From Alphaproteobacteria bacterium (lineage in GTDB: Bacteria; Pseudomonadota; Alphaproteobacteria; Micavibrionales; Micavibrionaceae): a stretch of 38,916 nucleotides of DNA. Below are positions 10,106 through 20,191 of the stretch, piece by piece; the first letter of the stretch is position 1, and each line of letters opens with the position of its first letter. The stretch covers positions 1 through 38,916 of the forward strand of contig JAERIN010000011.1 in assembly GCA_016757515.1 (NCBI GenBank), in the 5' to 3' direction. Made by a program: the position numbers and the translations under genes. A model generated the notes under the pieces. The model did not search any database and was not told where the DNA came from. It saw nothing but the letters and a program-made list of their open reading frames with translations.

Positions 10106-10633
10106 ATGGGCGAGGACGTGCAAGGCAGAATCTTCTTGGTGGTGGTGGACGAGACGCCGGAGTTCCAGGCAGCCCTGGCCTATGCGGCGTGTCTGACCCA
10201 AGGGCGGACTGGGACGCGGCTCGGACTCCTGAAGGTTTTGCCGCCTTTGGATTTCCAGCACTGGGGCGGGGTAGAGGCCAGGGCCGAAGCGGAAGCCAGG
10301 GCCGAAGCCGAGCGCATTCTGGGTGGGGCAGCCACCCGGGCGCAGGATGTGTGCCCCTTGGCAGAGCCACCCATCTTATACATAGAGCGCGGTACCCCGT
10401 GTGAGGCAGTCCGGGCTGCACTCAACGCGGACCCGGCCATTGTTCTGCTCATCCTGGCCGGGCACGCACAAGGTGCGGAGGTCGCCCCTCTCGTCGCGCA
10501 CTTTACGGGGCGGGGCATGGCGCAGCTCCGCGTCCCGGTGGTGGTGGTTCCTGGCCACCTAACGCACGAGGACATTGAGGTCCTGCTGGATGGCGGTCAC
10601 CGTGGGGGCGTCAAGGCCTCTTCTTCCGGATAG
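10106..10633 (+). CDS. Universal stress protein (UspA-like)
   Basis: 175 residues with a UspA alpha/beta fold pattern: beta-strand one GRIFLVVVDETPEF, a central LGLLKVLPPLDFQHW, and a late LRVPVVVVPGHLT at the nucleotide-binding end. A charged insert EARAEAEARAEAER (about residues 54-67) comes from a short DNA duplication. Family members bind ATP or act as stress modulators, but the G-2X-G-9X-G(S/T) ATP motif is not obvious here. It follows the permease pair by 28 bases and has AAAGGA upstream. Its last 37 bases overlap the 3' end of the convergent lptC-lptA gene. Confidence 0.82.
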   Translation: MGEDVQGRIFLVVVDETPEFQAALAYAACLTQGRTGTRLGLLKVLPPLDFQHWGGVEARAEAEARAEAERILGGAATRAQDVCPLAEPPILYIERGTPCEAVRAALNADPAIVLLILAGHAQGAEVAPLVAHFTGRGMAQLRVPVVVVPGHLTHEDIEVLLDGGHRGGVKASSSG

Positions 10634-11778
10634 AGCACCGCACGGGTCCGCCCGCCCAGGATAGTGGCCGTGCCCGTGACCGGGTCCACCCGTGCACGCG
10701 GGCCTGTCACCCGTGCGCCTCCCTGCACCGCGACTACGCCCCCTTCGGCCTCCAGGGTGCGTATAGCCATCTTCCCGCCCGCGTCGGGTGCCAGGTGGGC
10801 GGTCATCCGGGGCGCGGTGACCCAAGAGTCCGCCGTGTGGGTCAGGCGGGCCTGCCCCTCAGCGACAAAAACTCCCCGCTGTGTGTCATAGGCAAAGGCA
10901 TCTCTGGCGGTGAGTGTCTGTCCCTCTGGGAATATCGCCCTCAGGCCTGGACCGGACATCCGCGCGCGTCCAGACCTTACGTTGTAGTGTCCGGCGGCAC
11001 CTTGGGCCTGCGCGTCGCCGAAGGTCGCCACTACGAGCCCCCGGGCCTCCAGGGCCATGAGGACAAGGCCCTTACCTTGCTTGGATTCATACAGGGCTTC
11101 CAAAACATTTGCTGCCACGCGGGCCTTGTCCTGCGCTGCAGTCGCGTCACCGGTGGCGACAAAGCGTTGTTCTTTCCTGTTCCAAGATATGGAGTCTTTT
11201 GCTGTCACGACCACATGTGCACCGTCCTTTGGGGTCAGGAGCAAGCGCCCGGGCCCTGCAAACGTCAGAACCTCTGTACCCAAGACCCCGTCCAGGCCTG
11301 TGGCCGTGAGGGTGAGTGTGGGGCCCGCCACATCCACAGGTTCTGCCCCATGCGCGGCCTGTGTGACCAGGTCCAGGGTCAGGACAGACGTCTGCAGCGC
11401 ATGGTCGTCTAGGTACAAGGTGACGCCCTGCAGGAGATCCAGAGTTTCCGAGCTTGCGTCATAACGGCCCAGGCTCGCTGCCGCTGTGACCTCCCGCCCG
11501 TCTGGCAGGGTAAGGCGTGCCTGGGGAGCCTCTAGAAGGACGGGCGCGTCCTTACCCGCGTCCTGTAGGGCGCGATCGGCTGTCACGACGTAGGGCCGTC
11601 CCTTTGCGTCCCGGCTTTCGTAGCGCGGGTCAAAGAGGGTGTTGTCCCAGGCCTTGTCCGCCGGGAGGACCTCCGCCACGGGCGGCGGGGAGTAGGGAGT
11701 CTTTCCCTGGTTCCAGAGCACAAGGGTGGCGAGAAGGGCCAAGGCCAAGGCCGGGAGGGCTATGCGCGTTACCCGCAC
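10597..11778 (-). CDS. lptC: LptC-LptA fusion, lipopolysaccharide transport bridge protein
   Basis: 393 residues, about twice the length of LptC. Residues 7-24 form a membrane anchor. Residues about 45-205 match LptC (DPRYESRDAKGRPYVVTADRA, VLLEAPQARLTLPDG, LTFAGPGRLLL). Residues about 210-385 match LptA/OstA (ISWNRKEQRFVATGDATA, a later ARDAFAYDTQRGVFVAEG and GPRARVDPVTGTATI), including its repeated beta-jellyroll rhythm. LptC sits on the inner-membrane LptB2FG transporter and hands LPS to the soluble periplasmic LptA bridge; here both would be one tethered chain. The frame is open upstream of the GTG at 11778 with LptC-like residues (LLARPQERQRDWHARAWRV) but without a standard start codon, so the true start is uncertain. 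Confidence 0.85.
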   Translation of the reverse strand: MRVTRIALPALALALLATLVLWNQGKTPYSPPPVAEVLPADKAWDNTLFDPRYESRDAKGRPYVVTADRALQDAGKDAPVLLEAPQARLTLPDGREVTAAASLGRYDASSETLDLLQGVTLYLDDHALQTSVLTLDLVTQAAHGAEPVDVAGPTLTLTATGLDGVLGTEVLTFAGPGRLLLTPKDGAHVVVTAKDSISWNRKEQRFVATGDATAAQDKARVAANVLEALYESKQGKGLVLMALEARGLVVATFGDAQAQGAAGHYNVRSGRARMSGPGLRAIFPEGQTLTARDAFAYDTQRGVFVAEGQARLTHTADSWVTAPRMTAHLAPDAGGKMAIRTLEAEGGVVAVQGGARVTGPRARVDPVTGTATILGGRTRAVLYPEEEALTPPR

Positions 11779-11855
11779 GCGCCACGCCCTGGCGTGCCAG
11801 TCCCGCTGGCGCTCCTGCGGCCGGGCAAGGAGGTCGTAATGGGGCAGAGGACCAC

Positions 11856-12197
11856 TTACTCCTGCGGGGTGAGGCGGCGGCGCATGCCCCGGCGCGGGGG
11901 CGGCTGAGGCACATCCTCGCCCGCATTTCCTTCAGGTGCGGCGTGGCGCGGTGCAGAGCCGTCCCGCCGTCCGGCCTTGTGTTCCGGTATGGGCAGGGGT
12001 TTTTGCGTCGCGCCCGCACGCTCGCTTTTGGCCATGTCTATCTCTAGCCGCGCCAGAGCCCGGCGCAGCTCATGCGCCGCCTCGGCCAGTGCGCCCCGCT
12101 TTCCCTCGTCGCGCGGGTCCGCAGTCCAGGCCTTCCAAGCCTTAACGCAGGTCGCTCCGGCAGCGGTCAAGCGCTCTCCAGTTTCGGTGTCGGTCAT
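11856..12197 (-). CDS. Small hypothetical protein upstream of lptC-lptA
   Basis: 113 residues from ATG 12197, which has GAGGAGGG at good spacing. The N-terminal half is alpha-helical and Ala/Glu-rich (GALAEAAHELRRALARLEID); the C-terminal half is polar, Pro/Arg-rich and probably disordered (PQPPPRRGMRRRLTPQE). No signal peptide, membrane segment or recognised family. It is 77 bases before the fused lptC gene on the same strand and likely co-transcribed. A longer frame from 12329 is not credible, because no ribosome-binding site precedes it. Confidence 0.65.
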   Translation of the reverse strand: MTDTETGERLTAAGATCVKAWKAWTADPRDEGKRGALAEAAHELRRALARLEIDMAKSERAGATQKPLPIPEHKAGRRDGSAPRHAAPEGNAGEDVPQPPPRRGMRRRLTPQE

Positions 12198-12230
12198 CGC
12201 ACGGGCCCTCCTCACGGTTTCGCAAGGCGC

Positions 12231-12259
12231 AGCGTACCGCACTCCCGCCCTGACCGCAA
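12231..12259 (-). promoter_or_regulatory. Candidate promoter for the 12.2 kb gene and lptC-lptA
   Basis: On the minus strand TTGCGG (12259-12254) and TACGCT (12236-12231) are 17 bases apart, about 33 bases before the start at 12197. Consensus agreement is moderate. Confidence 0.4.
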
Positions 12260-12358
12260 TGTGGGGGGGCCGTGACTCCCTGGAGATTTTGCCAAAGTGG
12301 GGGTGTGGCTTTGTGTCATAGACGGCCATTTATCACGAGACACACCCAAACGGCACAC

Positions 12359-16498: not shown

Positions 16499-17860
16499 AT
16501 GCTGAACCTCGCCCCCTTTGTGCGCACCCTGAACGGCGCACCTGTGGCTGTTCTGGGCCTTGGCCGCTCGGGCCGGACCGCCGTCCGGGCCTTGGTCGCA
16601 GCGGGCGCGCGCGTCTGGGCCTGGGATGATGCCGCGAAGGCGCGCGAGTCGGTGGGCGCGGCCTATGTAAGGGACCTCGCGGGCGTCGGCGCGTGCGGGG
16701 CCCTGGTGCTCTCCCCCGGCGTGCCGCTAGACCACCCCGTGGCCATGGCGGCGCGCGCGGCGGGGGTGGAGGTTCTGGGGGACATAGAGATTTTGGGGCG
16801 GCTCGGCCTTGCCCAGAAGATCGTTGCCATCACGGGCACAAACGGGAAGTCCACCACGGCCGCGCTCACCGCCCACATCGCGCGGGCCTGCGGGGCGGAC
16901 GTGGCCCTGGGGGGGAACATCGGCGCGCCCGTGCTGGACCTGGACGCGCCCAGGGACGCGTTTGTCCTGGAGGTCTCGTCCTTTCAGGCGGACCTGTGCA
17001 CGCGATTCGCCCCGGACGCGGCGGCCCTGACGAATCTGGAGCCGGACCACCTGGCCCGGCATGGGAGCTTTGCGGCCTATATTGCCGCGAAGGAGCGCCT
17101 GTTCCGGGGGCCGGGCCTGGCGGTTATAGGCGTGGACGGGGCCGAGAGCGCCGCGTTTGCACGCAGGGTAGCCGCGAATCGGCGGGTGGTGCCGGTGTCT
17201 GTGGAGCGGGCGGTGGAGGGCGTGTGGGTCCGTGCGGACGGGGTCCTGATGGACGGGGGGCAGGAGATAGCCGGCTTGGAGCCCATCGCCACCTTGAAGG
17301 GGCGGCACAACTGGCAGAACGCGGCGGTTGCGGCGGCCCTGGTGATTCATGCCCTGGATCTGCCGCGCGAGGGGGTGGCGCGGGCGCTGGAGACTTGGGG
17401 GGGCCTGCCGCACCGGCAGTTCTTGGTGCGCAGGGTTGGGAACGTGGCCTACGTGAACGACTCGAAGGGCACGAATCTCCCTGCCACGGCCACGGCCCTG
17501 GCCGCGTTTGACACCATATACTGGATCGCGGGCGGCGCGGCGCGAGAGGTGGATCTGGAGCCCCTCGTGCCCTACCTCCCGCGCGTCCGCCATGCCTTTC
17601 TCATGGGTGCGTCGGCCCCGGCCCTGGCCGCGTTCCTGGAGCGGCACGGGGCGCCCTACACGGCGTGCGAGACCCTGGCCCCGGCCGTGTCTGCGGCGCA
17701 CGCCGCCGCGCAAGAGGGCGGGGGGCCTGCTACGGTCCTTTTTTCCCCGGCGTATCAGTCTTTTGATCAGTTTCGGGATTTTGAGGACCGGGGGGAGCAG
17801 TTTGCGGCTCTGGTGCGGAGCCTGCCCGCAGGGCCTCTGGCCCAAAATCCACGGGCTTGA
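16499..17860 (+). CDS. murD: UDP-N-acetylmuramoyl-L-alanine--D-glutamate ligase
   Basis: 453 residues, typical of MurD, which adds D-Glu to UDP-MurNAc-L-Ala in the cytoplasm. Features are the N-terminal Rossmann domain (VAVLGLGRSGRTAVRALVAAG), the Mur ligase ATP loop ITGTNGKSTTAALTAHI, the metal/substrate segment LTNLEPDHLARHGSFAAY, KGRHNWQNAAVAAAL, and the C-terminal GLPHRQFLVRRVGNVAYVNDSKGTN with the terminal LFSPAYQSFDQFRDFEDRG written in part as FSPAYQSFDQF. The start at 16499 is chosen from the alignment of the Rossmann domain; a frame from 16448 has no support. It is not next to other mur/fts genes, and its conserved 3' end overlaps the convergent gene by 131 bases. Confidence 0.95.
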   Translation: MLNLAPFVRTLNGAPVAVLGLGRSGRTAVRALVAAGARVWAWDDAAKARESVGAAYVRDLAGVGACGALVLSPGVPLDHPVAMAARAAGVEVLGDIEILGRLGLAQKIVAITGTNGKSTTAALTAHIARACGADVALGGNIGAPVLDLDAPRDAFVLEVSSFQADLCTRFAPDAAALTNLEPDHLARHGSFAAYIAAKERLFRGPGLAVIGVDGAESAAFARRVAANRRVVPVSVERAVEGVWVRADGVLMDGGQEIAGLEPIATLKGRHNWQNAAVAAALVIHALDLPREGVARALETWGGLPHRQFLVRRVGNVAYVNDSKGTNLPATATALAAFDTIYWIAGGAAREVDLEPLVPYLPRVRHAFLMGASAPALAAFLERHGAPYTACETLAPAVSAAHAAAQEGGGPATVLFSPAYQSFDQFRDFEDRGEQFAALVRSLPAGPLAQNPRA

Positions 17861-20129
17861 CGGGCCGGCCCGCGCGGATGAAGGCCTCCATCTGCGCCTG
17901 CCGCCCCGCGCTGCGCCGCGCAAAGTCTTTGTCTGCACCGAACTTCACCACCCGCACCAGGTCTGTGTAGGCATCGCTCCACACCACCGCGCTGTCCGGT
18001 AGGGGGAGCCACCCCGCCGCATCCAGACGCTGGGCCATGGGTCCTGGGGGCGTGAGGGCCACCCATTCGCTGGGCGCGACCAGGGGGTGCCGCTCCGGGG
18101 GGGTGTAGTGCATGCCATAGGCGGCAAGGCCCAGGGCCCGCGCCGCGCCGGCCAGGGGGGCGCGCAGGTCCAGGTACCGGTTGCTGATGTGCACCAGAAT
18201 TACCCCGTCCGGGGCCATGCGCGCGCGGTAGGCCATAAGGGCCTCAAGGGTTATGATGTGCGCCGGGATGGCGTCAGAGCTGAAGGTGTCTATGACCATC
18301 AGGTCGTAGCGCGGGCCTGGCGGCATCCCCTCCACCACCAGGCGGGCGTCGCCCAGGAAGACGTCCCCCGGCGGGCACAGGTCCAGGAAGGTGAAGTGCT
18401 CCCGCGCCACGCGCACGACCAGGGGGTCTATGTCCACGAAGTCTATGGTCGCGTCCGGGTACAGCCGAGCGTAGCAGGCGGTGGAGCCTGCACCCAGGCC
18501 CATGACCAAGACCCGGCCAGGCTGCGTGGCGGCGAAGGCGCTGTCCAGCGGGCCGTCCGGGGCGTAGTACGTCAGGGGCACGGCGTAGGCCCCCGCATGC
18601 TGTATCTGCATCCCGTGGACGGTGGAGCCGTGCTTGTAGACCCGCATCTTTGCGCCCGGCACGTCGGGTACGGGGGCGTCATAGACCGTGGAGACGCCAA
18701 AGACGTTGCGGGCTTGAAACACAGCGCTGGCAGGGGTGAGAAGGAGCATCACCGCACCGGCCACCAGGAGGCCCGCCGCAGCCATGAGGCGCGGGCGGAA
18801 GGCCGCCACCCATGCGCCGCCCGCAAAGACCCCCCACGCTGCGCGGGCTGTGTACGGCTCCACTGTGGGCACGAGGGCCCCTGCCACCAGCAGCGCAGGG
18901 GCGCACACAACCATCGCCACCGCCCCCCATAGGGCCAGGCGCCGGACGTTCGGGCTTGGCTCGGTCCTGTGGCGCGGCATGAGGAACACAGAGAGCAGCA
19001 GCGCTCCCGGGAATTCGGCTGGGGCGGTAAAGATGAGGGGTGCGATGAAGGCGTTGAACGCCCCGCCCAGCGCGCCGCCCAGGGCCAGCATGAGGTAAAA
19101 GTCCGTCAGGTGCCGCGCCGGGGGGCGCAGGGCGACCAGCCGCCCGTGCAGGGCCAGGGCCGTGACAAAGAACACTACCAGCACCGCGCCGATGTAAAGG
19201 AGGAGGAGCCCCGTACTCCCCACCGCCATGCCCTTGATGACAAAAGGCAGGAGCAGGGCCACCCCAAAGGGCTGCCAAAACCCCAGGGCGGCCAGCGGCA
19301 GGCGCACGCTCCGCGCGAAGGCCAGGATGTGCGTGGTCAGATAGAGCGCCAGGGGCACGACCCACAACATGGGCACCGCCGCTACGTCTTGTGTGATGTG
19401 CGCGCTCACTCCCGCAATCAGGCTGGCCGGCACCGCCGCTAGGGCCAACCAGGCTGCGCGCTGGCGCCAGGTGACCTCCCGGTGGAACAGGGTCCAGCCT
19501 ATCCCTGGCTGCGCCAGAACGCGGGCCCAGCCGCGCCGCGCGGGCCACGCTATGCAAGCGGCTACCAGGCCCCCCACCGCGCCGTAGACCAGAGCCCAGG
19601 CCCAGGCCTGCTGCGGCAAAGCGGCCCATGGCTCAACCAGGAGGGGATATCCCAAAAGACCCAGGACGCTGCCCGCGTTGCTGGCCGCGTAGAGGTGGTA
19701 TGGGTCGGCCTCGCCCGCTGCCGTGAAGAGCCTTTGGAGTCCCGGTGCTAGAGCCGAGAGCGCCACAAAGGGCACACCCACCGAGAGGGCCAGGGCCACA
19801 AAGACTCCCCACGGGGTTATGCCCTCTTGCAGCGGCGCGGTAGCAAACGCCACGGGCAGACCCGCGCCCGCAAGGGCTAGCAAGGCCAAGAGGGCCAGGC
19901 CGTGCGCCAGGGGCGATAGGCGGGACAGGAGGTGCGTCAGGCCATAGCCGGCGAGCAGGGCCGCCTGGAAAAAGGCCAGGGCCACGACCCAGCCCGCCGG
20001 GGCCCCGCCCACGTGGGGCAGCATCATGCGCCCGACCATGGGCTGCACGGAAAAGGCCAAGACCGCCGCGAGCGCGAGAGTCGCAGCGAACAGCGCGCCT
20101 TGGAAGCGAGGGGTGCGTTGAGATGTCAT
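17730..20129 (-). CDS. Membrane-fused spermidine-synthase-like protein
   Basis: 799 residues from ATG 20129. The first approximately 490 residues are an MFS-like membrane region of about 14 helices (ALAAVLAFSVQPMVGRMMLP onward). The C-terminal third is a Rossmann methyltransferase-like spermidine-synthase fold: VLVMGLGAGSTACYARLYP, VDIDPLVVRVAREHFTF and YDLMVIDTFSSDAIPAHI. Such fused proteins are widespread, and their polyamine activity is unproven. The tail after about residue 760 is Pro/Glu/Lys-rich and low complexity. That tail is encoded antisense to the conserved end of murD, with which the gene overlaps by 131 bases, so it may have arisen by loss of an earlier stop. Confidence 0.88.
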   Translation of the reverse strand: MTSQRTPRFQGALFAATLALAAVLAFSVQPMVGRMMLPHVGGAPAGWVVALAFFQAALLAGYGLTHLLSRLSPLAHGLALLALLALAGAGLPVAFATAPLQEGITPWGVFVALALSVGVPFVALSALAPGLQRLFTAAGEADPYHLYAASNAGSVLGLLGYPLLVEPWAALPQQAWAWALVYGAVGGLVAACIAWPARRGWARVLAQPGIGWTLFHREVTWRQRAAWLALAAVPASLIAGVSAHITQDVAAVPMLWVVPLALYLTTHILAFARSVRLPLAALGFWQPFGVALLLPFVIKGMAVGSTGLLLLYIGAVLVVFFVTALALHGRLVALRPPARHLTDFYLMLALGGALGGAFNAFIAPLIFTAPAEFPGALLLSVFLMPRHRTEPSPNVRRLALWGAVAMVVCAPALLVAGALVPTVEPYTARAAWGVFAGGAWVAAFRPRLMAAAGLLVAGAVMLLLTPASAVFQARNVFGVSTVYDAPVPDVPGAKMRVYKHGSTVHGMQIQHAGAYAVPLTYYAPDGPLDSAFAATQPGRVLVMGLGAGSTACYARLYPDATIDFVDIDPLVVRVAREHFTFLDLCPPGDVFLGDARLVVEGMPPGPRYDLMVIDTFSSDAIPAHIITLEALMAYRARMAPDGVILVHISNRYLDLRAPLAGAARALGLAAYGMHYTPPERHPLVAPSEWVALTPPGPMAQRLDAAGWLPLPDSAVVWSDAYTDLVRVVKFGADKDFARRSAGRQAQMEAFIRAGRPVKPVDFGPEALRAGSAPEPQTAPPGPQNPETDQKTDTPGKKGP

Positions 20130-20191
20130 GTCCTGAGGGCAGGGTATGCGGGTTTTGTAGAGAAGGTCTAGTGGCTCCACTGCGCAGGGTT

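Follow-up and report, generated by a model that had tools for sequence, protein, structure and literature searches.

A naturally fused LptC-LptA protein in a Micavibrionaceae genome and the single-LptA bridge that it may build

The canonical Lpt bridge of E. coli is made of seven proteins. In it LptC binds LptA on its N-terminal side, and cells can grow with an LptA that does not oligomerise (PMC5575297). The length of a bridge containing a single LptA has been approximated at 16 nm (PMC5575297), and how many LptA copies the bridge holds is described as a matter of continuing debate (PMC7347655). The assembly of LptA with LptC and the degradation of LptA are regarded as quality control in this bacterium (PMC8824477). 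Suppressor mutations in E. coli lptF (LptF R212G) bypass LptC and result in a six-protein bridge (PMC9972910). In those portions of the open-access PMC literature that could be searched, no report of a natural LptC-LptA fusion was found, so this absence is not a proof; the "lptCA" of an E. coli paper denotes two genes named together and not a fusion.

We analysed a stretch of 38,916 nucleotides (hereafter the window) that is one whole contig of a draft alphaproteobacterial genome (1.75 Mb, 90 contigs, 98.9% complete). One of its genes, here called lptCA, encodes a protein that resembles known LptC (PF06835, TIGR04409) in its single N-terminal transmembrane (TM) helix and periplasmic beta-taco, but its chain runs on into an LptA domain where known LptC stops. 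This second domain is similar to LptA and LptH (PF03968; E. coli LptA 2r1a, Pseudomonas LptH 4uu4) in its beta-taco, its N-terminal strand motif and the C-terminal strand "RTRAVLYP". Unlike them it has no signal peptide, is not soluble, is covalently joined to LptC at its N-terminal edge, and carries about 64 extra residues ahead of the region that corresponds to E. coli LptA. With the E. coli bridge the system shares lptB, lptF, lptG and lptD as well as an LptC-to-LptA order that is the natural head-to-tail one; the covalent LptC-LptA contact would, however, do away with a pool of free LptA and with the step in which LptC and LptA assemble non-covalently. The LptF R212G bridge is comparable in that fewer separate Lpt components are tolerated, but it loses LptC and has LptA contacting LptF, whereas the fusion keeps LptC and joins it to LptA. 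The LptCA proteins of uncultured gut and rumen Alphaproteobacteria of family f97 (for example RGIG7089 and UBA3768) have the same domain order in one open reading frame (ORF), but lie in an rnd-kpsF-lptCA-lptB operon, appear to be of separate origin, and have an LptA half that is either shorter or much longer.

The lptCA gene and its genomic setting

The lptCA coding sequence occupies positions 10597-11778 of the minus strand, from the first standard start (GTG at 11778) to the stop at 10597, and is translated into 393 residues without an internal stop. An earlier note on this DNA had proposed a single 393-residue LptC-LptA protein at these positions; Pfam domains and an AlphaFold2 model now bear this out, on the minus strand. 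The true start probably lies further upstream, because the frame stays open beyond the GTG and HARAWRVRVTRIALPAL, encoded in this upstream part, lines up with the N-terminal ends of LptC proteins from relatives, where it forms the short segment preceding the TM helix. The modelled TM helix also begins N-terminal to the GTG position. A plausible start would be the CTG at 11847, which gives 416 residues and has a possible ribosome-binding site, AGGAG, at 11859-11863 on the minus strand, although the codon choice is uncertain. The AGGAG overlaps the 3' end of an ORF without a Pfam match (11856-12329, minus), whose stop falls just ahead of the possible CTG start; this ORF and lptCA are possibly translationally coupled. 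Upstream of that ORF lies a gene that we take, from inspection by eye, to be ppdK. At its other end lptCA runs into a convergent ORF that is Usp-like (10106-10633, plus; Pfam Usp 22.8 bits, slightly below the cut-off of 24), and the two genes share their last 37 bp (10597-10633). Elsewhere in the window, positions 17730-20180 of the minus strand encode an 816-residue protein that is hydrophobic in its N-terminal region and has a spermidine-synthase-like domain scoring below threshold (17.2 versus 22.9 bits).

The rest of the Lpt system was sought in the same genome, as the earlier note had suggested, and lptB, lptF, lptG and lptD are all present. The gene for LptD, which matches the LptA family model, is at C1:135983, and lptF and lptG are at C39:8824-11053. 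The lptB gene stands alone at C2:9046-9756, outside the usual kpsF-lptC-lptA-lptB-rpoN order; its neighbours, both named by eye, are presumably a gene resembling TerC and one resembling a histidine kinase. Both lpxC (contig C57) and kpsF (contig C79) score over their cut-offs. Whether a separate lptA exists had been left undecided; in the 98.9%-complete draft PF03968 at E ≤ 1 matched the fusion and LptD only, and a free lptA could sit in an assembly gap. In relatives the gene order is rnd-kpsF-lptC-lptA-(lysE)-lptB-rpoN, and both lptCA and lptB of this genome are away from it.

Domain assignment and predicted fold

Both halves of the protein were recognised by Pfam, LptC (PF06835) over residues 12-173 with 43 bits against a cut-off of 21, and LptD_N/LptA (PF03968) over residues 195-276 with 29.8 bits against 20.4 and with a second LptA stretch. 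The NCBIfam equivalog model for LptC (TIGR04409) was also passed, with 45.9 bits against 38. That for LptA (TIGR03002) was not, with 24 bits against 71.7; since three of four stand-alone LptA proteins from the same family miss this cut-off too, it cannot separate this lineage and the shortfall is not diagnostic. A phmmer search of PDB sequences with the fusion protein returned chance matches only.

The structure was predicted with AlphaFold2 from 69 aligned sequences of the window and its relatives, in a numbering of 414 residues. An earlier multiple alignment was discarded for this purpose, as it had set LptA N-termini on the homologous LptC strand. The model has a mean pLDDT of 92.0 and a pTM of 0.80, and consists of a helix (residues 8-45), a first set of strands (67-202), a loop (203-209) and a second set of strands (210-403). 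The helix (11707-11820, minus) aligns with "YSRFIRWMRVVLPMAALGILALLAAWP" of related LptC and would be the inner-membrane anchor. The LptC beta-taco (11236-11652, minus; residues 64-202) agrees with the Pfam LptC match and with two known structures, E. coli LptC 4b54_A (model residues 82-202, Z 10.9, 1.9 Å over 119 residues) and LptC 6mit_C (residues 64-212, Z 12.2, 2.6 Å over 144 residues). The LptA beta-taco (10633-11214, minus; residues 210-403) is supported by the Pfam LptD_N match, by the alignment and by LptA 2r1a_E (residues 275-406, Z 15.6, rmsd 2.1 Å over 121 residues); the extra residues ahead of the E. coli LptA match are 210-273. The structural comparison also gave hits to MORN proteins, junctophilin and OspA, which were rejected as reflecting a common repetitive beta arrangement. 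A single jellyroll with repeats, which the earlier note had named as grounds for abandoning the fusion, is not what was predicted, as two full tacos were modelled.

Between the tacos lies a linker of about 7 residues (11215-11235, minus; residues 203-209), at the site that in relatives holds the stop codon of lptC and the signal peptide of LptA; the model block that spans it has a pLDDT of 89. The groove may run on continuously across the junction, given the short linker and the known head-to-tail order of the two proteins. In the alignment the fused LptA half is about 29 residues shorter near its C-terminus than the stand-alone LptA of relatives, which could signal an altered function; the terminal motif "RTRAVLYP" is retained, where relatives have "RVRGVFYP". 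Taken by its parts, the protein scores above the curated LptC cut-offs and has, as LptC does, one TM anchor at its N-terminus and then a beta-taco; it also has the PF03968 score and the LptA-type beta-taco fold of LptA. It lacks the solubility and the cleaved signal peptide of its own that belong to stand-alone LptA. Because neither a stop nor a signal peptide precedes this domain, we regard the fusion as containing an LptA domain and not a stand-alone LptA.

A tethered bridge and its alternatives

The junction was compared with the corresponding region of relatives. From the LptC "F-GP" to the tryptophan of the LptA "LEW" the window has 78 nt, while the median of 24 relatives is 201.5 nt (165-392). 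What is missing is the stop and the signal peptide, about 90-120 nt. Among 13-residue stretches, the most hydrophobic at the junction scores 1.21, compared with 2.63 as the median ahead of stand-alone LptA, and no signal peptide was found at the junction by this measure; the absence of a stop and of a second signal peptide between the domains, as noted earlier, thus holds for both the open frame and the hydrophobicity. Matches were obtained in 56 of 58 related genomes, counting the window's own, and at the loci read out in relatives lptC and lptA are separate neighbours, with LptA having its own signal peptide. In the window's order 139 of 142 genomes matched, and no other uninterrupted LptC-LptA frame was found among the matches listed. 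Every genome with a suspiciously long frame turned out, once its locus was read, to have separate genes. Open frames of more than 490 residues in some genomes (e.g. G029, G033, G054 and G057) proved at the DNA level to be two ORFs split by a stop. What looked like a single ORF in G036 was an artefact of repeats in the BLAST comparison, and a profile test resolved it into separate genes.

The evidence supports a real LptC-LptA fusion, and we consider a tethered bridge with one LptA, created by an in-frame deletion between lptC and lptA, to be the best explanation, with a probability of about 0.8. The deletion would have joined the adjacent genes by taking out both the stop codon of lptC and the signal peptide of LptA. 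The LptC helix would then anchor LptCA in the inner membrane, the LptC taco would receive lipopolysaccharide from LptB2FG and pass it along a continuous groove into the attached LptA taco, and the C-terminal edge of LptA would dock on the N-terminal domain of LptD, all without proteolytic release of LptA. The simplest bridge would be LptF-LptC-LptA-LptD, with exactly one LptA and a length encoded in the gene. One LptA per bridge is what we infer, because the draft genome yielded no free LptA and the N-terminal edge of the LptA domain is taken by its own LptC; with that edge joined to LptC, oligomers of free LptA are not expected.

It could be argued that the fusion is translated whole and then cut in the periplasm, so that free LptA is released and oligomerises as usual. 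Processing of fused envelope proteins by proteolysis is possible in principle, and a cut by an enzyme other than signal peptidase is compatible with the computed results, but the junction has no stretch as hydrophobic as a signal peptide and the short linker between the two tacos is modelled with a confidence of about 89. We therefore hold cleavage to be improbable. It could also be argued that lptC and lptA are truly two genes merged by an assembly or sequencing artefact, since the window's fusion is known from one contig of one metagenome-assembled genome (MAG) and no close relative was found in a first scan of genome contigs with its protein. Such an artefact must, however, remove about 90-120 nt without shifting the frame and yet leave a well-formed fold across the junction; the gene lies outside the kpsF-lptC-lptA-lptB operon, so the locus has changed in any case, and the LptC-LptA architecture recurs in many independent assemblies elsewhere. 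The pattern reads as an in-frame deletion and not as a base-call error, being one that a simple indel could not give, and the sequencing error that the earlier note feared might have merged two genes cannot explain how the stop, the signal peptide and these nucleotides came to be absent; we give an artefact very little credence. Equally hard to credit is a fused protein that is decaying or repurposed for another lipid, with lipopolysaccharide export by this route lost, for although the LptA half is short and the genome small, lpxC, kpsF and lptB/F/G/D are all present, the conserved motifs are retained and the fold is modelled at high confidence.

If the tethered one-LptA bridge is real, a lineage whose LptA occurs solely as a continuation of the LptC chain amounts to a natural experiment in which one LptA per LptC suffices. 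Bridge length would then be heritable, and electron microscopy could relate it to the width of the periplasm. The fusion would also abolish the quality-control step formed by LptA-LptC assembly and LptA degradation (PMC8824477), and it bears on inhibitors that target the LptC-LptA contact (PMC7237710).

Recurrence and length variation of the fusion

The distribution of the fusion was surveyed with a profile of the concatenated proteins over 385 alphaproteobacterial genomes, of which 339 matched and 30 were followed up. Further single-ORF fusions occur in at least four other families and at least eight genomes of this sample, namely in f45 (G095, G222), f97 (G147, G257, G348, G425), f54 (G399) and f42 (G393). 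Both domains were present by Pfam in each of these fusions that was scanned, and the context, where read, was kpsF-lptCA-lptB. In sister genomes within f54 and f42, lptC and lptA are separate. In a tree of LptB, f45 groups with f97 (90/86) and the window, f54 and f42 are placed elsewhere, the exact place of the window being unsure given its long branch (0.98). Because the tree sets the fusions apart and their junctions differ between lineages, the fusion appears to have arisen at least four times. The check on distribution that had been proposed at the outset thus points to at least three origins in the 385-genome sample besides that of the window.

In the order of G257, which consists of gut and rumen MAGs, 40 of 43 genomes matched, and in all 40 (36 tested together and 4 earlier), from 13 genera, LptC and LptA are fused in one ORF. 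Among the 36 genomes the fused proteins are 333 to 711 residues long, when counted from the LptC match as far as the stop codon. Judged from these sequences, the LptA half has changed length within f97. The independent fusions elsewhere, together with one order in which every matching genome has the fusion and its length varies twofold, lend weight to the idea, raised in the earlier note, that tethering would fix the start and possibly the length of the bridge, an idea that appears mechanistically sound. We further put forward, tentatively and as less likely than not, that the covalent one-LptA bridge is obligate in fused lineages and that the length of the fused LptA is a genetic ruler that sets the periplasmic gap.

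In G399 of f54, the LptA part of the fused lptCA contains a 105-bp unit repeated 2.2-2.7 times with up to 94% match (locus L079, 1872-2157). The repeat looks like a recent duplication of a 35-residue module and may lengthen the bridge. Its predicted structure likewise consists of tacos (pLDDT 90.2), and the match to LptA extends over 123-127 residues. At individual f97 loci (L094, L095, L180, L187, L189-L191 and L193), which cover the range of 333-711 residues, the LptA profile matches the longest proteins two or three times. Public MAG records contain twelve loci that are also fused, several of them from genomes already counted, and the titles of such records include sheep rumen, roe deer abomasum and yak omasum.
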